Part shown: piece after piece, positions 16,771-34,440 of the stretch
Layout of the letters: every line of letters begins with the position of its first letter
How positions within the stretch are numbered: the stretch's first letter is position 1
From: a virus
IMG/VR virus record: IMGVR_UViG_3300027721_000021
Location: 1 to 52,144 of that record
Length of the DNA: 52,144 nucleotides
Reading direction: 5' to 3' (one strand)
The notes under the pieces: generated by a model
The model's input: only the letters and a program-made list of their open reading frames with translations
The model's database searches: none
What the model was told of the DNA's origin: nothing
Position numbers and translations under genes: made by a program

Positions 16771-17339
16771 GCAACAAGAAAATTCGATTCATTGACAATC
16801 AGATGGTAGAGTACGAGATTCTTCCACTGGTGGATTCCTATGCTTCAATCCTGCGTCAGCCGACACAGGTGATAGATTTCGACGCGCCGCAGATCGGAAT
16901 TCCATATCTCTCATTGAGCCTCATGGAATCCCTCAAGCACTACAAGGGTTTGGGACTCTCCGCGAATCAGGTGGGTCTACCCTATCGTGCGTGCGCTCTC
17001 GACATGATCGAAGAGAATGAGATCTTCTGCCTGATCAATCCAGTCATCGTGGAGAAGGCACCGACTCCTTCCACGTACAAGGAAGGATGCCTTTCGTTCC
17101 CCGGTCTGTTCCTAGAGATTGGACGACCTGAGTGGTGCGTGGTGGAATTCCAAGCAGGCAACGGTGAGAAGATCACGAAAAAGTTCGAAGGCATTTGGGC
17201 AACGTGCGTACAGCATGAGTTGGATCACCTTGACGGCATCTGTTATACGGATCTTGTCTCACCCATCAAGCTAGATATTGCTAAGAGGAAGGTCAAGGCG
17301 AACCTCCGGAAGATCCGTCGCGCCACCACAGGCGCGTAA
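16767..17339 (+). CDS. def: Peptide deformylase
   Basis: Removes the formyl group from the N-terminal methionine of new proteins. It has 190 residues with all three family motifs: GLGLSANQVG (residues 61-70), EGCLSFPG with the metal-ligand Cys108, and QHELDHLDG with metal ligands His150 and His154 and catalytic Glu151. Phage deformylases are known from cyanophages, where they help process phage or photosynthesis proteins. Here the gene is the last of the gp55-gp47-gp46 operon. Activity is likely because no catalytic residue is missing. Confidence 0.95.
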   Translation: MSNKKIRFIDNQMVEYEILPLVDSYASILRQPTQVIDFDAPQIGIPYLSLSLMESLKHYKGLGLSANQVGLPYRACALDMIEENEIFCLINPVIVEKAPTPSTYKEGCLSFPGLFLEIGRPEWCVVEFQAGNGEKITKKFEGIWATCVQHELDHLDGICYTDLVSPIKLDIAKRKVKANLRKIRRATTGA

Positions 17340-17396
17340 GTCATTGATTCTAAACGGGTTATATGGCTTGCTTTTCACTGGAAAACCTGTCAAACT
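17337..17396 (+). promoter_or_regulatory. Promoter with upstream element, for the CobT-like gene
   Basis: TTGCTT (17368-17373) and CAAACT (17391-17396) are 17 bases apart. Upstream, TAAGTCATTGATT (17337-17349) ends exactly 18 bases before the -35 box. The same element at the same distance precedes the promoters at 20383 and 34472. Its first three bases are the deformylase stop codon. The -10 box is weak, so an activator acting at the upstream element is an inference. Confidence 0.6.
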
Positions 17397-17418: not shown

Positions 17419-19800
17419 ATGTCAGCCACCAATCTCAATGTCACTAAGTCGATCCTCGCGAAATTGCTCGCGGGTGAGAATATCAACGTAGTGCATCAAC
17501 GTGTAAGCACTGCGGCATTCGAACTCAAGACTCGCACTCTGTATCTTCCGATTTGGGAAGACATGGACGGCGAGCTTTATGACTTGCTCTGCGGTCATGA
17601 AGTCGGACATGCTCTCTATACACCGGCTGACGGTTGGCACAATGCCATTCACGATGAAAACGGCAAGCTGATCGGCACGTTCAAGAATGTGCTGAACATC
17701 GTGGAAGATGCGCGTATTGAGAAAATGATCAAGCGCACGTATCCCGGTCTGTCTCGGTCATTCGTTTCTGGCTACAAGTCGCTCTTCGAACGCGACTTCT
17801 TCGGCATCAAGAAACTCAAGGATTACAACAAACTCAACATCCTCGACCGCATCAATCTGTATGCGAAGTGCGGCTCGTTCCTGATCGTGCCTTTCAATGA
17901 TGAAGAGCGCGAACTCATGCGCGAAGTCGAAACTACCGAGACTTGGGAACAGGTTGTCGTAGTCGCTCGCAAACTCTTCGAACGTGCGAAGCAGGAACAG
18001 GACGACAAGATGAACGATCTTGAAGACCTGACCGAAGAACTTCTGCGCCAGTTCGAAGAGAATTGCGAGACTGGCAACTTCGAAGAGCAGGAACTTGACC
18101 TGTCGGATGACGACGGGCAGGAACTCCCCATTCCGCAGCGTGCGGGTGAAGAGGAAGAGGAAGGCGAAAAGACTCCGACCGATGCCGATGCGTCTACCGA
18201 TGAAGAATCGGAAGAGGAAGAATCGGCTGACGGTAAGGGTGCGGATAGCGACTCTGAGCCGGAAGAGGAAACGGATGAAGATGCGAATGCGTCTGGCGAC
18301 TCCGATGAAGGTGAAGAGGAAGACTCTACCGAAGAGCCGTTGTCTGGCGCAGATGGCGCAGGCGAGGAAGGTAAGACTGAGGACAAGGATCCGGAGTCTA
18401 TCACCGACAAGATTTTCCGTGACCGTGAACGCGAACTGATCGCGGACGGCGTGGAAATCTACACGTACAATCTGCCTAAGCCGATGCTCGACAAGATCAT
18501 CGTGCCGAACAAGATTTTCATTGACAACTTCTACGAACAGTTGGCGACTGCGCAAAAGCTTGCCGGTAAGAACGATCCTATCGTGGCTACGGCAGCGAAG
18601 CGTTTCTCTGAGAAGAACAACCGGTACATCAACCTGTTGGTCAAGGAATTCGAAATGCGGAAGAATGCGCGGCAGTATGCTCGCACTACCGTAGCGAAGA
18701 CTGGCGAACTAGACATGGGCAAGCTGCATACCTACAAGTACAGCAATGACCTGTTCAAGAAAATCTCTGTTGTCGAAAAGGGCAAGAGCCACGGCATGAT
18801 CATGTATGTGGACATGTCCGGTTCGATGGGCGATTGCTTCGGCGCGACCATGGAACAGACGCTTATCCTGACTGCGTTCTGCCGTCGCGTCGGCATCCCG
18901 TTCGACGTTTACGGTTTCTCGGATCGTCGCGACTTCCTGACTTCCATGATCGCGAAGCGCAAGCTGAACTCTGGCTTTGTCGGCAAGAAGTTCCAGAAGT
19001 TGAACAACGATGCGTATGAAGTTACAAGCGATGCGTTCCACCTGATTCACTTTGTCTCTTCGCAGATGCAGGGCAATCACTATCGCCGTGCGGTTGACGC
19101 AATGGCAATGATCGCAATGAACTGGAAGAGCCGCATGTACCCGCGCACGTACCTGTCATGGGAATCCATGGGTCTTGCGCTCGGCGGCACTCCGTTCACT
19201 CAGACGGTCATGGCTTCGCGCCCGATGATCGAAAAGTTCAAGATCGACAACAAGGTTGATATCACCAACGTCATTTACCTGACTGATGGTGACGGCACCG
19301 GTTGCTTCAACTTCACGGATATCAAGCCGTCAGCCTACACTGCGGAAGGCAAGCCGAAGATCGAACAGCATATCTACCTGATCGACCAGAAGACCCGTCG
19401 CCGCATCGAACTGATCAACGGCTACACTTCGGCTGCGCAGCACCAGAAGGCTCTGACCGAGTTTGTGCGTCAGGCAACCGGTTGCAAGCATATCGGCTTC
19501 TACATTGGCGACTCGCGCACGATCAAGGGCTACATCCGTACTAACACTAAGATGGATGAAGTCGCTGAGAAGGAAATGGACAAGCAGTGGCGCAAGGATG
19601 GTTACTACTCTGCGCCGATGATCGGCTATGACATGTACTACTTTGTCAAGCAGTCTGACCTCAACGTTTCGGACGACGATTACAACATCACCGAAGACAT
19701 GAACAGCAAGAAAATTGCCAAGGTCTTCACCGATGCGCAGGATGACAAGCGTAAGCACCGCGTCCTCGTTTCGAAGTTCGCGCAGGATATCGCAGCGTAA
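17419..19800 (+). CDS. CobT-like VWA protein with HExxH metalloprotease motif
   Basis: A 793-residue protein. Residues 58-101 hold a zinc-protease-type motif, CGHEVGHALYT (His60, Glu61, His64), and a downstream NIVEDARIE whose Glu96 or Glu101 could be the third ligand. Residues 197-325 are an extremely acidic linker. Residues 455 onward form a von Willebrand factor A domain with the MIDAS motif DMSGSM (465-470). This layout resembles the CobT subunit family of cobalt chelatase and its VWA relatives, which act with a MoxR/CobS-type AAA+ ATPase. Such an ATPase is encoded at 20430. Cobalamin synthesis is unlikely in a phage; protein or metal remodelling is an inference. It has its own promoter. 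Confidence 0.8.
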   Translation: MSATNLNVTKSILAKLLAGENINVVHQRVSTAAFELKTRTLYLPIWEDMDGELYDLLCGHEVGHALYTPADGWHNAIHDENGKLIGTFKNVLNIVEDARIEKMIKRTYPGLSRSFVSGYKSLFERDFFGIKKLKDYNKLNILDRINLYAKCGSFLIVPFNDEERELMREVETTETWEQVVVVARKLFERAKQEQDDKMNDLEDLTEELLRQFEENCETGNFEEQELDLSDDDGQELPIPQRAGEEEEEGEKTPTDADASTDEESEEEESADGKGADSDSEPEEETDEDANASGDSDEGEEEDSTEEPLSGADGAGEEGKTEDKDPESITDKIFRDRERELIADGVEIYTYNLPKPMLDKIIVPNKIFIDNFYEQLATAQKLAGKNDPIVATAAKRFSEKNNRYINLLVKEFEMRKNARQYARTTVAKTGELDMGKLHTYKYSNDLFKKISVVEKGKSHGMIMYVDMSGSMGDCFGATMEQTLILTAFCRRVGIPFDVYGFSDRRDFLTSMIAKRKLNSGFVGKKFQKLNNDAYEVTSDAFHLIHFVSSQMQGNHYRRAVDAMAMIAMNWKSRMYPRTYLSWESMGLALGGTPFTQTVMASRPMIEKFKIDNKVDITNVIYLTDGDGTGCFNFTDIKPSAYTAEGKPKIEQHIYLIDQKTRRRIELINGYTSAAQHQKALTEFVRQATGCKHIGFYIGDSRTIKGYIRTNTKMDEVAEKEMDKQWRKDGYYSAPMIGYDMYYFVKQSDLNVSDDDYNITEDMNSKKIAKVFTDAQDDKRKHRVLVSKFAQDIAA

Positions 19801-20354
19801 TGGCAATCTCCACCTTCATAGAACGTCCGCGCAGAGGCGACGGCACCATCTATGGGGTGCCGTACACCTTTCGCTATGAGTCTTATGAGTATGAGTTGAT
19901 CGACGGCACGCGATTCGAAGAACACAAGTTCGATGACATGGTGGACTACGTAAAGCGCAATCACAAGTCATTCAGTGGGATGATGGATGCGAAGTTAGGA
20001 AGTCGGCGGATGACTCCGGACGATCTGAACGCACGCCGACTGTTCATCGTAACAGAGAACAAGAAAAGACAGTTGAAGTGGGATAAGGAATTCAACCACA
20101 AGGTTGTGAATCTTGTTCACAAGGCAATTGAGCAGGGCATGGTGAGTCTGAAAGTCGCAACGATACAGCCGTTCGAACTTCGCACGGTTGACGATAAGGT
20201 GAGTACGATGGTGACACCGAATTACGATTCCTTCGATATCTGGTATGATCGGAGTCTTGTTTCTGAGTCTGAGGCATACACTCGCTGCCGCGAACAAGCC
20301 GAGAATGCGATAAGAAAGTCCATGCCGCCGCCTGATTTACTGCCGATGGTGTAA
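19800..20354 (+). CDS. Unknown protein between CobT-like and CobS-like genes
   Basis: A 184-residue protein whose ATG overlaps the CobT-like stop (TAATG), so it is translationally coupled to it. No family is recognised. It is mixed charged, with IYGVPYTFRYESYEYELI near the N-terminus and a Lys-rich centre (ENKKRQLKWDKEFNHKVV). It ends MPPPDLLPMV. No membrane segment or signal peptide is seen. Its place between a VWA protein and an AAA+ ATPase suggests an adaptor or substrate of that pair, which is only inference. Confidence 0.75.
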   Translation: MAISTFIERPRRGDGTIYGVPYTFRYESYEYELIDGTRFEEHKFDDMVDYVKRNHKSFSGMMDAKLGSRRMTPDDLNARRLFIVTENKKRQLKWDKEFNHKVVNLVHKAIEQGMVSLKVATIQPFELRTVDDKVSTMVTPNYDSFDIWYDRSLVSESEAYTRCREQAENAIRKSMPPPDLLPMV

Positions 20355-20411
20355 GTCATTGATTTCAAAAGGCTTTCAATCCTTGCCTTTTACCCCGATA
20401 ACCCGCATAAT
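20352..20411 (+). promoter_or_regulatory. Promoter with upstream element, for the CobS-like gene
   Basis: TTGCCT (20383-20388) and CATAAT (20406-20411) are 17 bases apart. TAAGTCATTGATT at 20352-20364 ends 18 bases before the -35, as at 17337. The first three bases are the stop codon of the upstream gene. The start codon at 20430 is only 18 bases past the -10 box, giving a leader of roughly a dozen bases with no clear ribosome site. Confidence 0.65.
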
Positions 20412-20429
20412 GGGACATAGATAGTACAC

Positions 20430-21848
20430 ATGGCATCCTCCGATATGGCACGCACCCCGAACTACACCGTGGAACAGCAAAAGCAATTCCTTGAAGACCT
20501 GATTGCCGAATTTGGCGATACGGCAACGTCCAAGCAAATTCTTGACTTCGCAGAAGGCAAGGGTCTGCCCGTTCCGCATTTCATTCTGCGCGACGACAAG
20601 CGCAAGTTCGCTCGCGGCAAGTATCGACTTTGCTCGCGCTCCGCACTCCTGAAAAAGAACACCGTGTCGCACGCAATCGCGAAGGCACTGGAAAAGGCGG
20701 ATGCAGAAGAGGCACCCGCAATGCTGCCGAATGCGACTGTGACACAGATCGCGTCAAAGCGTGCGCTCAACATCACCGAGTCATTCGTACCTGACCGTTT
20801 GGATACTTACGTACCCTTCGGATTCTTCGATGACCTTCGGGACATTATCAATTCCAAGATTTTCTACCCTGTTTTTATTCAGGGTCACTCAGGCAACGGT
20901 AAGACGTTGATGGTGGAACAGGTTTGCGCTTCGCTCGGTCGCGAAATGATCCGAGTGAACATTACGAAGCGAACCGATGAAACGGACCTGATCGGTTCGT
21001 ATGAACTGATCGACGGTAACACAATTCGCCGCGAAGGTCCGGTTCTCACCGCAATGCGCCGTGGCGCGATTCTGCTTCTGGATGAAGTTGACCTCGGCAC
21101 CGAAGACTTGCTTTGCTTGCAGCCGGTGCTAGAGGGGAAACCGTACTTCGATAAGAAGACCGGTGAAGTCATACATCCCTGCTACGGTTTCAACGTCATT
21201 GCGACTGCCAACACTAAGGGCAAGGGTGACGCGGACGGTCGCTATCTCGGTGCGAACGTCATGAACGAAGCTATGCTTGAGCGTTTCGCTCTTACGGAAG
21301 AGCAGGACTATCCGGACGCGAAGACTGAGCGCAACATTCTGCGCAAGAACTTCGAAGCGTTGGAAGTGTCGGATGACGACTTCATTGATCGTCTAGTCAC
21401 TTGGGCAGAAGTCATTCGCAAGTCCTTCAAGGATGGTGCGGTGGATGAAATCATTTCCACCCGTCGCCTTGTCCACATTACGAAGGCTTTCAAGATCTTC
21501 AAGCGCAACCGCATGAAGGCAATCGAAAAGTGCCTCAACCGGTTCGATGCTGAGACTAAGACCGCATTCCTCGACCTGTATACGAAGGTTGACGTTGAAG
21601 CGTTCAAGGTGGAAGCCGAAGGCAGAATGCCGGAAGCGACCGAGTTCGAAGACATGGTTACAATGCTCACCACAAAGTACAAGACTCCGGTTTCGATCTA
21701 CAAGGATGAAGCGAAGGCTTGCTACGTTGTCGATGCGTTCGACCGCAAGACCTCGGTGACTTACGCGCAGATCAAGGCTTCGAAGTCTGCGACCGCAATC
21801 TTCGACCAGACGATTGCTGACCATCAGTTCCTCGTACCGGAAGCCTAA
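20430..21848 (+). CDS. CobS/MoxR-like AAA+ ATPase
   Basis: A 472-residue AAA+ ATPase. Residues 1-110 form a variable, partly helical N-terminus. Walker A is GHSGNGKT (152-159), Walker B ILLLDEVD (214-221), and sensor 1 lies in FNVIATANTKGKG. This resembles the CobS annotated in many T4-like cyanophages and the MoxR group of ATPases, which work as chaperones with a VWA partner. That partner is probably the CobT-like protein two genes upstream. The second ATG at 20445 is an alternative start; neither has a good ribosome site. Confidence 0.85.
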   Translation: MASSDMARTPNYTVEQQKQFLEDLIAEFGDTATSKQILDFAEGKGLPVPHFILRDDKRKFARGKYRLCSRSALLKKNTVSHAIAKALEKADAEEAPAMLPNATVTQIASKRALNITESFVPDRLDTYVPFGFFDDLRDIINSKIFYPVFIQGHSGNGKTLMVEQVCASLGREMIRVNITKRTDETDLIGSYELIDGNTIRREGPVLTAMRRGAILLLDEVDLGTEDLLCLQPVLEGKPYFDKKTGEVIHPCYGFNVIATANTKGKGDADGRYLGANVMNEAMLERFALTEEQDYPDAKTERNILRKNFEALEVSDDDFIDRLVTWAEVIRKSFKDGAVDEIISTRRLVHITKAFKIFKRNRMKAIEKCLNRFDAETKTAFLDLYTKVDVEAFKVEAEGRMPEATEFEDMVTMLTTKYKTPVSIYKDEAKACYVVDAFDRKTSVTYAQIKASKSATAIFDQTIADHQFLVPEA

Positions 21849-21849
21849 T

Positions 21850-22017
21850 ATGGCACTTCAAAAGATAATGGAAGATCATGCTGCCGCATTAGAGATAGTG
21901 CGGCGCGTACAGCAAAACGCACGGTGGAGCGACTTACTCGACTCTTACGTGATTGACGCGGATACTGTCGCGATGGCAGATATCCTTGTGCGCGAAATCG
22001 AAGAGTCTGACAAATGA
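21850..22017 (+). CDS. Small hypothetical protein
   Basis: A 55-residue protein starting one base after the CobS-like stop and overlapping the next gene by 4 bases (ATGA). It looks like two helices (MALQKIMEDHAAALEIVRRV and ADTVAMADILVREIEESDK). No family is recognised. The tight spacing puts it in the same transcript as the ATPase. Confidence 0.65.
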   Translation: MALQKIMEDHAAALEIVRRVQQNARWSDLLDSYVIDADTVAMADILVREIEESDK

Positions 22018-22448
22018 AAGAGCGTCACATTGGATTCACCGGCACCCGCGAGGGTATGTCGGACCATCAAAAGGAAACCTTCGCGGGTATCCTCAAGACG
22101 GCGAAACTTCTCTCCGAACTTGAAGATGAAGTGATCGTGTTTCACCATGGCGACTGTAAGGGTGCCGATGCCGACGCGCACGCAATCGCATTAGAGTTAG
22201 GATGCAGCGTCATCATCCATCCGCCAGTCAAGCGCATCATGCGTGCATACTGTCAGGGTGCGCGGGAAATCCTGCCACCCGAAGACTACTTAGAACGTGA
22301 TCGCTGCATCGTGGATTCTGTTAGCGGCATGATCGCTGCTCCTAAGTCAGATAAGGAAGAAGTCCGAAGCGGCACATGGTACACTGTGCGATATGCTCGT
22401 AAGACTAATAAGAGAGTTATCCTGCTAAACCGGGAATCTCAAGTCTAA
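22014..22448 (+). CDS. SLOG/DprA-like Rossmann-fold protein
   Basis: A 144-residue protein with the layout of SLOG-superfamily nucleotide-binding proteins. It has GFTGTREGM at residues 7-15, then FHHGDCKGADADAHAIA (about 43-59) with the Gly/Asp-rich phosphate loop, and CSVIIHPP. The later stretch RDRCIVDSVSGMIAAP and RSGTWYTVRYARK are also typical of this group. Relatives sense or process nucleotide derivatives or bind single-stranded DNA, as DprA does. The specific ligand cannot be read from sequence. It overlaps the previous gene by 4 bases and is the last gene before a new promoter. Confidence 0.75.
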   Translation: MKERHIGFTGTREGMSDHQKETFAGILKTAKLLSELEDEVIVFHHGDCKGADADAHAIALELGCSVIIHPPVKRIMRAYCQGAREILPPEDYLERDRCIVDSVSGMIAAPKSDKEEVRSGTWYTVRYARKTNKRVILLNRESQV

Positions 22449-22705: not shown

Positions 22706-24793
22706 ATGACAACCAAACATACAGGCGCACGCGAGCTAATCAAGCTAGGCGTATTCGACAACCTCTCAAGCTTCAAGCAATTCGAAGAGCGCAGCAAGAA
22801 ACTGCCGAATACGAAGCTTGTCGGTGACTATCTGGAAATTCTCGTTGAGGGGTTGCTGTACACGCATCCGTATTTCAACGCAAAGAATGTCTGGCAAGTC
22901 GGCAGCATCCCGTCGCGGATCGTCAAAAAGTACAACTTCCCGAAGCACAAGACGATGGGACTCGACGGCGCATACGAAGACCAATTTGGTCAGATCATTC
23001 CGTATCAGGTCAAGAACTACTCTTGCGATGTTCTCTCCGTAGAACACGTTGCGACCTTCCTCGGCGTTACTGAAAAGTCGCTGCGGGATCGCGTCATCTT
23101 TACGAACGTTCCCCGCTTCGCGACGGAAATCGACCGGCGTATCGGTCTGCGCGGCGTGAAAGCCGGATTCTTCCAGACTCTCACAAAGCATGACTTCATC
23201 AACTTCTACAATTGGCTTATGGACAAGCCGCTCCTGCCAGTTCAGCAGCGCACACCTAAGCCGCACCAGAAGGAATTCGTTGCTGCCGGTATTGATCACT
23301 TCGCGACCAATGATCGCGGACAGGCTGTAGCGGCGTGCGGATCGGGCAAGACCCTTTCTGGACTCTGGATCATCGAAGGTCTGTGGCGTGCGGGTAGGTT
23401 GCCTAACAACACCGCAATCGTCTTCCTGCCGTCCATTTCGCTTGTCTCGCAGACTCGTAAGGAATGGAACGCGCAGCTTCCGAATGATCTTCTGGAAATC
23501 TGCGTATGCTCCGACGAGACTGCCGGTAAGCAGGACGACACGATTCAGTACAACGTCAAGGACATGATGTTCCCGGCAACTACGGATGCCAAGACCATTC
23601 GCAAGTTCCTCAAGCACAAGACTCGCAAGCTTAAGGTCATCTTCTCGACGTATCACTCTGCGGCAGTAGTGGCGAATGCCATGAACTCGCGTGGCATCCC
23701 GGCAATCGACTTCGGCGCATTCGATGAAGCGCACCGCACGGCATCGACTGGCGCGATGTTCTCGTTCGCACTGTCCAACAGCAACATTCGCATCAACAAG
23801 CGCATGTTCATGACTGCGACTCCGAAGCACTACAAGATCAGCGCAGACAAGCTCAAGAAACTTGGTGACGATATCAAGATCGTTTCCATGGACAACGAAA
23901 AGCTATATGGCAAGGTCTTCTATCGGCTCACCTTCAAGGAAGCCGTTGCGCGTGGCATCATCGTTCCGCTCAAGGTCATCGTTTCGATGGTGACGCGGCA
24001 GGACGTTGCCGAGTGGGTTGAAGACAAGCAAGCGACCACCAACGTCAAGGGTGAGGATATCAACGTCAAGTGGGTTGCGGGTCAAATCTCGCACGCGCAG
24101 GCACGCAAGAAGTACGGTATCACTAAGTCGATTTCTTACCTGTCGCGTATCGCACAAGCCGAAGACTACGCGAGCGATTCGCCGCGTGGACTCAAGAACT
24201 ACGTGAAGGGTCTGGAAACCTTCGCGGCTTCCTCTAATCAGAATTCGACCGAACGCGAGAATGTCCTGAAAGACTTCCGCGAAGCACCGTATGCCGATAT
24301 CGCGAACTCGCGCTGCCTGACCGAAGGCGTAGACCTTCCCTCGGTGGACATGGTTCACTTCTTCCACCCGCGCAAGAGCCACATTGATATCGTGCAGGCA
24401 ATCGGTCGCCCAATGCGTATCGCTCCCGGCAAGGAATGTGGTTACGTTCTAGTGACGCTTTACATCGACCAACAGAAGGGTGAATCCTTTGAGGAAGCGG
24501 TTGAGCGCACTTCGCAGGACGGTCTGGTGGATATCATCAACGCAGTCCGCGAACACGATGAAGACCTCACGGCACTCATTCAGCAGCTTCGGCGCGAACG
24601 TGGCGAAGGTCGCCCATACAATCCACGCATTCTCAAGGACAAGATCGAAGTGATTGGTCCGCGAGTGCGTCTGGAAACGCTTGAGAAGTCAATCTCAACG
24701 ATCATCATTGACCGACTCAGCACGGCATTCGATGAAACGTATGGCGAGTTCATGGCATTCGTAAAGAAGCACGGCAGGCTCCCGCAGGGTTAA
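22706..24793 (+). CDS. SF2 helicase with N-terminal nuclease-like region and partial HA repeat
   Basis: A 695-residue protein. The N-terminal 150 residues resemble a Mrr/PD-(D/E)XK restriction fold: Glu44 or Glu48 in GDYLEILVEGL, Asp87 in GLDGAYED, and QVKNY with Gln101 and Lys103. The helicase core follows: motif I AACGSGKT (209-216), motif II FDEAHR (about 339-344), motif III TATPKHY, and motif VI QAIGRPMRIAPG. The last 25 residues (YGEFMAFVKKHGRLPQG) are the first half of a helicase-associated (HA) repeat, cut by the stop codon. The two following genes begin with the second half of that repeat. Likely a DNA-processing or restriction-type helicase of phage origin. Confidence 0.82.
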   Translation: MTTKHTGARELIKLGVFDNLSSFKQFEERSKKLPNTKLVGDYLEILVEGLLYTHPYFNAKNVWQVGSIPSRIVKKYNFPKHKTMGLDGAYEDQFGQIIPYQVKNYSCDVLSVEHVATFLGVTEKSLRDRVIFTNVPRFATEIDRRIGLRGVKAGFFQTLTKHDFINFYNWLMDKPLLPVQQRTPKPHQKEFVAAGIDHFATNDRGQAVAACGSGKTLSGLWIIEGLWRAGRLPNNTAIVFLPSISLVSQTRKEWNAQLPNDLLEICVCSDETAGKQDDTIQYNVKDMMFPATTDAKTIRKFLKHKTRKLKVIFSTYHSAAVVANAMNSRGIPAIDFGAFDEAHRTASTGAMFSFALSNSNIRINKRMFMTATPKHYKISADKLKKLGDDIKIVSMDNEKLYGKVFYRLTFKEAVARGIIVPLKVIVSMVTRQDVAEWVEDKQATTNVKGEDINVKWVAGQISHAQARKKYGITKSISYLSRIAQAEDYASDSPRGLKNYVKGLETFAASSNQNSTERENVLKDFREAPYADIANSRCLTEGVDLPSVDMVHFFHPRKSHIDIVQAIGRPMRIAPGKECGYVLVTLYIDQQKGESFEEAVERTSQDGLVDIINAVREHDEDLTALIQQLRRERGEGRPYNPRILKDKIEVIGPRVRLETLEKSISTIIIDRLSTAFDETYGEFMAFVKKHGRLPQG

Positions 24794-24797
24794 TGAT

Positions 24798-25187
24798 ATG
24801 ATGACCGAAGCACAACTGTATCAGTGGATGAGGGCACAACGCACCTATAACAATCAGGGGCGACTTGAGCCGCGCCGCGTGAAACTTCTAGAGAAGATTC
24901 CCGGTTGGACTTGGACACCAGAAGATGATTCTTGGAATCAGAAGTATGAACTCTCTAAGAAGCACGGTACTCTATCCCGTACCTTCATTACAGCCGATGG
25001 AATCAAGTTAGGATGCTGGCAAGAAAACATGCGTAAGAATGGTGGTAACAACAAGCACATGACACCAGAGCGCAAGAAACTTCTAGAGAAGATTCCCGGT
25101 TGGTATTGGAAAATGACACCAGAAATGTTCTCCGAGAAGCAGAGAAAGTGTTCTTCTGGAAGAAAGACAAAGGCTCGCCGCAAATGA
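24798..25187 (+). CDS. HA-repeat protein 1
   Basis: A 129-residue protein starting 4 bases after the helicase stop in a +1 frame. It carries one half and one complete helicase-associated repeat, each ending in a IPGWTW/IPGWYW box (residues 34-39 and 99-104). HA repeats are DNA-binding modules usually fused to SF2 helicases. It opens MMTEAQLYQWMRAQR, continuing the repeat that the helicase leaves unfinished. The C-terminal tail after residue 105 departs from the repeat and becomes basic, as expected of a frame-shifted end. The stop overlaps the next ATG. Confidence 0.72.
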   Translation: MMTEAQLYQWMRAQRTYNNQGRLEPRRVKLLEKIPGWTWTPEDDSWNQKYELSKKHGTLSRTFITADGIKLGCWQENMRKNGGNNKHMTPERKKLLEKIPGWYWKMTPEMFSEKQRKCSSGRKTKARRK

Positions 25188-25909
25188 TGACCGAAGCAGA
25201 ATTATTTCGTTGGATGGGTACGCAGCGCAGATCGTGTACGGACCCACGCCGTCGCGAATTGCTTGAGGCGATTCCCGGTTGGACATGGGAGAGTCCCAAC
25301 GACATACGTTGGAATGCCAACTTCAAAGTGTTCAAGAAACACGGAAAGATGGTCAACAACCAACATTTCAAAACGCCCGATGGTGTCTCCCTCGGTAAGT
25401 GGGTGAAGAACCAACAACAGTTCTGTAAGGAACCCGCGAAACGCGCATTGCTAGAATCTATTCCCGGTTGGGTCTGGCTCACACCACAAACCGATAGATG
25501 GGATCGTGCATTTGAGTATCTCAAGACGCATGGTGTAGTGACGCACGGTTTCAAAACGCCGGATGGATTTAGACTTGGACACTGGATTAACACTCAGAGA
25601 CAAGCTTGTAAAGATCCAGAGAGGCGCAAACTATTAGAGTCAATTCCCGGTTGGACATGGGTGGTGGTAGAGAGAAAACCCAACTCAAAGAATATCGCAT
25701 TGTGGGAAAAGGGATACGATCACCTTAAGCAATATGGCAGTGGTGCGGTGACTCAGAAGTACCGTATGGAAGACGGCTTTGCTCTCGGGCATTGGGTTAT
25801 GATGCAGCGACGTATTTGTAAGGATTCAGAACGCCGCCGACGATTAGAGTTAATTCCTGACTGGACATGGAAATCCCCTCGCGGTCCAAAAGTTAAGAGC
25901 AGGATTTAG
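25184..25909 (+). CDS. HA-repeat protein 2
   Basis: A 241-residue protein made almost entirely of helicase-associated repeats: a half repeat, then three full ones, with end boxes IPGWTW (29-34), IPGWVW (93-98), IPGWTW (153-158) and IPDWTW (224-229). Each full repeat holds W...F..LK.HG, FKTPDG..LG.W...QR and P..R..LLESIP. The ATG at 25184 is chosen because it overlaps the upstream stop (ATGA) and begins MMTEAEL like the previous protein. The same frame stays open upstream to 25100 and reads FFWKKDKGSPQ just before the ATG, similar to the helicase C-terminus, which points to a frameshifted ancestor. Confidence 0.75.
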   Translation: MMTEAELFRWMGTQRRSCTDPRRRELLEAIPGWTWESPNDIRWNANFKVFKKHGKMVNNQHFKTPDGVSLGKWVKNQQQFCKEPAKRALLESIPGWVWLTPQTDRWDRAFEYLKTHGVVTHGFKTPDGFRLGHWINTQRQACKDPERRKLLESIPGWTWVVVERKPNSKNIALWEKGYDHLKQYGSGAVTQKYRMEDGFALGHWVMMQRRICKDSERRRRLELIPDWTWKSPRGPKVKSRI

Positions 25910-34322: not shown

Positions 34323-34440
34323 CCCTAGGCTACCCTACCGGCTACCCTGTAATACGCTCAGAAACGATCCTAGGCGGTCCTAGGCACCCCTCCTAAGTCC
34401 TTGATTCTAAAGGACTTTTAGCCTGAAATTAGGCTTATCG
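34323..34440 (+). repeat. Repeat-rich intergenic segment
   Basis: CCTAGGC occurs three times (34324-34330, 34369-34375, 34379-34385), GGCTACCCT twice with a 12-base period (34328-34336, 34340-34348), and TAAGTCCTTGATT at 34394 and again at 34441. AAGTCCTT (34395-34402) and AAGGACTT (34410-34417) form an 8-bp hairpin. The segment holds no gene. It could be a replication or regulatory site. Confidence 0.6.

Follow-up and report, generated by a model that had tools for sequence, protein, structure and literature searches.

Phage genes that encode a VWA protein beside an AAA+ ATPase have been described in conflicting ways. In cyanophages, the two genes were named cobST and assigned to the core cluster, and cobT was considered to be 'mistakenly annotated as a peptidase' (PMC8651126); cobS is likewise listed as a cyanophage core gene and called a cobalamin biosynthesis protein (PMC3037559). 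In jumbo phages of group 2.2, a MoxR AAA+ ATPase lies beside a vWA protein fused to a metallopeptidase, for which a function in virion assembly was proposed (PMC7824862). A cellular VWA/AAA+ pair provides a structural reference: PMC13036017 shows how the VWA domain of NorD docks on the NorQ ring and places a finger inside its pore. The phage pair itself is therefore already known, published twice as either a cobaltochelatase CobST or a MoxR/vWA-metallopeptidase, although a preliminary description of the present locus had regarded the CobT-like partner as less familiar. New here are the conservation of HExxH and N-x-x-E-D in the viral and plasmid type, their absence in cellular CobT, and the separation of the two types along one branch. 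Literature searches on MoxR/VWA/CobT in phage, on DUF3150 with VWA and on phage-encoded cobNST found nothing, and the main text of the papers searched does not mention the expression timing of cobS or the peptidase gene.

The window, which is the whole stretch of 52,144 bases analysed here, is an IMG/VR virus record and a fragment of a T4-like phage. Genes for the tail sheath, portal, scaffold, major head protein, UvsY, UvsW, gp55, gp47, gp46 and peptide deformylase precede the VWA/AAA+ pair, and genes for the sliding clamp, clamp loader subunits, DNA polymerase and UvsX follow it. The pair thus occupies the syntenic position of T4-like PHROG 459, after gp46 and before gp45/44/62, with cobS following the peptidase gene. 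Three open reading frames, the HExxH motif, the acidic linker and the MIDAS were all found where the preliminary description had placed them (Table 1). The first frame overlaps the second by one base, start on stop (TAATG), and a 75-bp gap lies between the second and the ATPase frame.

Table 1. Positions of the genes and motifs of the locus in the window.
Feature	Position	Strand	Details and basis
VWA protein, N-terminal predicted zinc metallopeptidase domain	17419..19800	+	793 aa; PHROG 459 'peptidase', T4-GC 146 in cyanophages; synteny
HExxH, H60 E61 V62 G63 H64 (CGHEVGHAL)	17596..17610	+	predicted helix 51-67
N93-I-V-E96-D97-A-R-I-E101 motif, candidate third zinc ligand	17695..17721	+	predicted helix 88-107; N93, E96, D97 invariant
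Acidic linker, residues 201-320	18019..18378	+	predicted disordered, pLDDT <50
MIDAS DxSxS, DMSGSM residues 465-470 (D465-M470)	18811..18828	+	invariant residues; VWA fold match
T591 and D623	19189-19191 and 19285-19287	+	complete MIDAS set
184-aa ORF, lineage-restricted insertion	19800..20354	+	no Pfam/PHROG family; 3 IMG/VR contigs
MoxR/CobS-like AAA+ ATPase, 472 aa	20430..21848	+	PHROG 249 'porphyrin biosynthesis', T4-GC 150
Walker A GHSGNGKT (152-159)	20883..20906	+	sequence motif
Walker B ILLLDE (214-219)	21069..21086	+	sequence motif
ATPase C-terminal extension, about residues 400-472	21627..21845	+	mostly present in only about 22% of viral homologues

Several further features were observed around these genes. 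A 43-nt direct repeat (17336-17378 and 20351-20393, 74% identical) lies immediately 5' of the VWA gene and of the ATPase gene; it contains a 13-base exact core, TAAGTCATTGATT, which begins at the preceding stop codon and of which two one-mismatch copies are located at 34394 and 34441. This repeat is possibly a shared regulatory element. Downstream of the pair, a 144-aa protein (22014-22448) exhibits weak DprA/SLOG-like matches. A 695-aa helicase (22706-24793) strongly matches PADLOC models of type IIG/type I restriction-methyltransferases across its helicase part; this phage helicase could derive from a restriction system or be defence-like. Directly after a ResIII-type helicase, two ORFs (24798-25187 and 25100-25909) are composed of repeated helicase-associated (HA, PF03457) domains, and the repeats are also seen in the DNA.

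The VWA protein matches the PHROG 459 profile over its full length (residues 8-792 of 793, E 1e-181). In 77 viral homologues that are 29-84% identical to the window protein, H60, E61, H64, N93, E96 and D97 are invariant, as is the full MIDAS set (D465, S467, S469, T591 and D623); the motifs are thus not there by chance. HExxH is present in 92 of the 92 viral sequences that include the N-terminus (88 distinct contigs), and all of them carry N-x-x-E-D downstream of it. Both motifs are also found in plasmid and phage-plasmid relatives, with the exception of one outlier on a Paraburkholderia plasmid that lacks HExxH. An alignment of 16 phage and plasmid proteins, with identities as low as 14%, retains just 11 invariant columns, among them H60, E61, H64, D97 and the MIDAS. 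Profile comparison of the phage and plasmid N-terminal domains (probability 98.8, E 1e-16) places HExxH on HExxH. A single-protein scan of genome contigs yielded one relative.

The AlphaFold model (pLDDT 77, pTM 0.66) comprises an N-terminal domain with short strands and the two motif-bearing helices, a disordered linker, a long helical section and the VWA domain. HExxH and NxxED lie on consecutive helices that follow the short strands, an arrangement compatible with a zincin core, and the zincin-like assignment of this domain is a prediction from motif and secondary structure. The VWA domain of the model matches that of NorD solved with NorQ (9qh6_G, Foldseek probability 1.0); the Foldseek PDB matches listed are dominated by this domain and contain no solved zincin, and a search of solved structures with the VWA profile gave no match. 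The apparent zinc-protease site of the preliminary description is thus borne out as a predicted zinc-metallopeptidase domain with conserved motifs, and on this sequence basis the site is real and DISCRIMINATING. Its fusion to a vWA domain with an intact MIDAS, and the adjacent MoxR-class AAA+ ATPase, correspond to the phage MoxR/vWA-metallopeptidase pair.

The ATPase belongs to the MoxR class by its Walker A, Walker B and sensor motifs (sensor-1 ATANT, residues 258-262) and by its match to AAA_5 (E 4e-20). The closest solved structures are Midasin, CobS, NorQ and CbbQ. The two genes are retained together across viruses, in support of the preliminary reading that they belong together: both were found in 72 viral loci with a median gap of about 90 bp, and a cobS-like gene lies no more than 130 bp downstream in 48 of these. 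The same gene order occurs in S-SSM5, P-SSM2, Pelagibacter phage HTVC008M and Ochrobactrum phage vB_OspM_OC, and in Stenotrophomonas phage DLP6 the pair has been relocated but kept together. The tblastn matches of the VWA protein come from 463 phage records and those of the ATPase from 757, and the counts for cyanophages are equal for the two proteins (365 Synechococcus, 61 Cyanophage and 24 Prochlorococcus records), which contradicts the earlier statement that T4-like phages often carry CobS alone. Thirteen viral loci have a metallopeptidase-VWA gene and no detected cobS-like gene in the sequenced DNA around each, about 6 kb on both sides in loci L096 and L117, so the two genes can separate.

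The middle gene does not share this conservation. Its reading frame is conserved in two relatives, so it is a genuine coding sequence, with relatives in only three IMG/VR contigs, one of them identical to the window. It belongs to no PHROG family, lacks a significant Pfam match and gives no match in phage records, and its fold model (pLDDT 76, pTM 0.46) has no PDB match at E<=0.001. It is absent from the other viral relatives of the pair. A role as third subunit was rejected, as the gene is confined to near relatives and missing between the pair elsewhere. The three-gene module with a third coupled gene that was first described is therefore really one of two genes, and the 184-aa ORF is, judged by its distribution, a passenger inserted locally.

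The neighbourhood of the pair differs among elements. In T4-like phages, it sits between gp46/47 and the clamp and clamp loader genes; in phage-plasmids and their relatives, the order is vwa-AAA-dnaE; and in IncC and related elements, AAA, ssb, bet, exo, DUF3150, VWA and toprim genes occur in varying order. The T4-like neighbourhood is conserved as a block, and the closeness to replication genes may be historical. A metalloprotease-remodeller in phage and plasmid DNA metabolism would fit better than a cobaltochelatase. We propose that the AAA+ ATPase would form a hexamer, on which the VWA domain would dock as NorD does on NorQ; this step is transferred to the phage pair by analogy with the NorD VWA domain on the NorQ ring (PMC13036017). 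The MIDAS would grip a target protein, which ATP-driven movement would present to the linker-tethered zinc metallopeptidase. This target would most likely be a phage or host protein that takes part in replicating, recombining or repairing DNA, such as a DNA-bound protein that has stalled or become crosslinked, rather than a corrin-ring enzyme. We consider it an evenly balanced proposition, mechanism and target included, that the two outer genes represent, in T4-like phages, a mobile-element AAA+/VWA-metallopeptidase pair that acts on a DNA-metabolism protein, with the middle gene as a passenger.

T4-like phages process many head proteins, which counts for a role of the pair in virion assembly. 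A chaperone and co-chaperone pair with a protease would then process phage structural proteins, as was proposed for the jumbo phages with the same MoxR and metallopeptidase-vWA architecture (PMC7824862). However, the same HExxH protein and AAA+ ATPase lie beside bet and exo in conjugative IncC plasmids and related elements, which make no virions, and the T4-like copies are located in the replication block, away from the head genes of the window; we regard virion assembly as rather unlikely. Alternatively, the pair could serve counter-defence or host takeover: the ATPase would unfold, and the metallopeptidase cleave, a host protein such as a nucleoid protein, a sigma factor or a defence factor, and early expression would account for the linkage to DNA genes. 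The early-gene neighbourhood is consistent with this alternative, as is the presence of the pair in both phages and plasmids, which encounter the same host defences. Its very high conservation in phages of unrelated hosts suggests a conserved target instead of a variable host one, and among PADLOC families none matches the VWA protein and only TRIP13 weakly matches the ATPase, so that counter-defence also appears unlikely.

A DNA-metabolism role for the pair is at odds with its published cobaltochelatase label, which was compared with cellular CobT and CobS. The ATPase matches TIGR01650 CobS with 88.7 bits, far under the equivalog cut-off of 558.55. The earlier term 'CobT-like' holds for the VWA protein only as a distant similarity: the profile match to cellular CobT is weak (22%) and in the same register, but the window protein has no match to Pfam CobT or CobT_C (PF06213, PF11775) at E<=1, and a PF06213 search of the whole record was negative at E<=10. 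Some plasmid relatives do match CobT/CobT_C, and profile comparison links the plasmid and cellular CobT VWA domains. None of the 20 cellular CobT proteins found with PF06213 in Pseudomonadota has HExxH at the aligned place, where the sequence is GHADSIALKLACHD-like, and EQ (or ES, ET) replaces ED; one of the 20 has an unrelated HExxH within a read-through upstream stretch. The motif is also missing at this place in five chromosomal CobT-like proteins from Enterobacterales and three more from Pseudomonadota.

Eight chromosomal loci carry pairs of an AAA+ and a CobT-like gene lacking HExxH, and several of them adjoin a gene that presumably resembles that for sulfoacetaldehyde acetyltransferase (xsc). 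The CobST-like pair in this setting may serve another enzyme.

In a tree of 38 sequences (IQ-TREE, PMSF, 200 bootstrap trees), unrooted and with long branches, all proteins lacking HExxH fall on one side of a single branch (100/100 support, 200 of the 200 bootstrap trees). Within this tree, the T4-like proteins group by themselves (100/100), the window protein lies in the HExxH group outside the cellular CobT clade, and the group lacking HExxH adjoins the dnaE-linked phage-plasmid proteins. Clustering by type is expected, since the labels follow sequence similarity; the informative part is the single change, and loss of HExxH in the CobT line would be the simplest reading of the unrooted tree. 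Homologues lacking the motif, which the preliminary description had named as potential evidence against a metal site, thus do exist as cellular CobT, but they group in a single clade of their own, and no T4-like viral homologue that includes the N-terminus has lost HExxH.

Cellular CobT co-occurs with CobN, which is present in 44 of the 54 genomes with CobT compared with 15 of the 146 without it, as expected for a true chelatase subunit. In Enterobacterales, PF06213 was found in 19 of 248 genomes and the CobN family in 29, both in only two, and nine of the 10 HExxH-type carriers inspected have no CobN family member (one has CobN). No CobN was found in the window, which is a fragment of a phage genome. 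The HExxH type is separate from CobT, accompanies replication or recombination genes and, in Enterobacterales, mostly occurs in carriers lacking CobN, and the 'cobaltochelatase' label, which fails by Pfam CobT, by the CobT clade and by the CobS cut-off, is therefore probably wrong for the phage pair. Despite the CobS matches in profile and solved structure, the Pfam matches of plasmid relatives and the strong cellular CobT-CobN association, it is very unlikely that the phage proteins replace host CobS/CobT to drive cobalt insertion by host CobN and raise the B12 supply (PMC8651126).

With the pair read as a mobile-element metalloprotease and its ATPase, the direction of borrowing could be the reverse of the published view. 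Somewhat below an even chance, we tentatively suggest that cobaltochelatase CobT arose as a zinc-dead branch of an ancient AAA+/VWA metalloprotease that mobile elements use in phage and plasmid DNA metabolism; it would then be wrong to regard the cyanophage core 'cobS' as an auxiliary vitamin B12 gene. Phage 'cobS' is currently classed among the auxiliary metabolic genes for vitamin B12. Should its fixed partner prove to be a metalloprotease in DNA metabolism, viral ecology surveys would be misled by the B12 label, and abundant marine phages would have a core gene whose true function is still to be found. Resistance plasmids (IncC) carry this machine as well, and no described role was found for it there.

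The pair shares features with several known systems and differs from each. NorQ/NorD shares a MoxR AAA+ ATPase with a VWA partner (9qh6; VWA fold match probability 1.0), and differs in inserting the iron cofactor into nitric oxide reductase, with no protease role described in the available part of PMC13036017. Cellular CobT/CobS (solved as 9uka and 9ujv) shares an AAA+ partner of a VWA protein with an acidic linker and a remote N-domain similarity in the same register; in contrast, cellular CobT lacks HExxH, has EQ or another pair for ED, and works with CobN. The IncC/ICE-type AAA, DUF3150 and VWA cluster shares HExxH, NxxED and VWA with an AAA+ ATPase, but is linked to ssb/bet/exo, has the additional DUF3150 protein, and its AAA and VWA genes are not adjacent. 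The group 2.2 jumbo-phage pair, likened here by its description, has the same AAA+ MoxR beside a vWA protein with an N-terminal metallopeptidase, and its proposed role is virion assembly (PMC7824862). The viral CobST cluster names the same cyanophage gene pair (PMC8651126); the conservation of HExxH and NxxED argues against its view that the peptidase label is a mistake, and this label probably deserves reinstatement. The T4-like pair of 'peptidase' PHROG 459/T4-GC 146 and PHROG 249/T4-GC 150 provides a full-length homologue with the same domain order and the same position between gp46 and gp45/44/62. The window VWA protein shares only some 31-34% identity with the best GenBank cyanophage copies, and the window differs from the T4-like cyanophage pair in the inserted 184-aa gene and the longer C-terminus of the ATPase.
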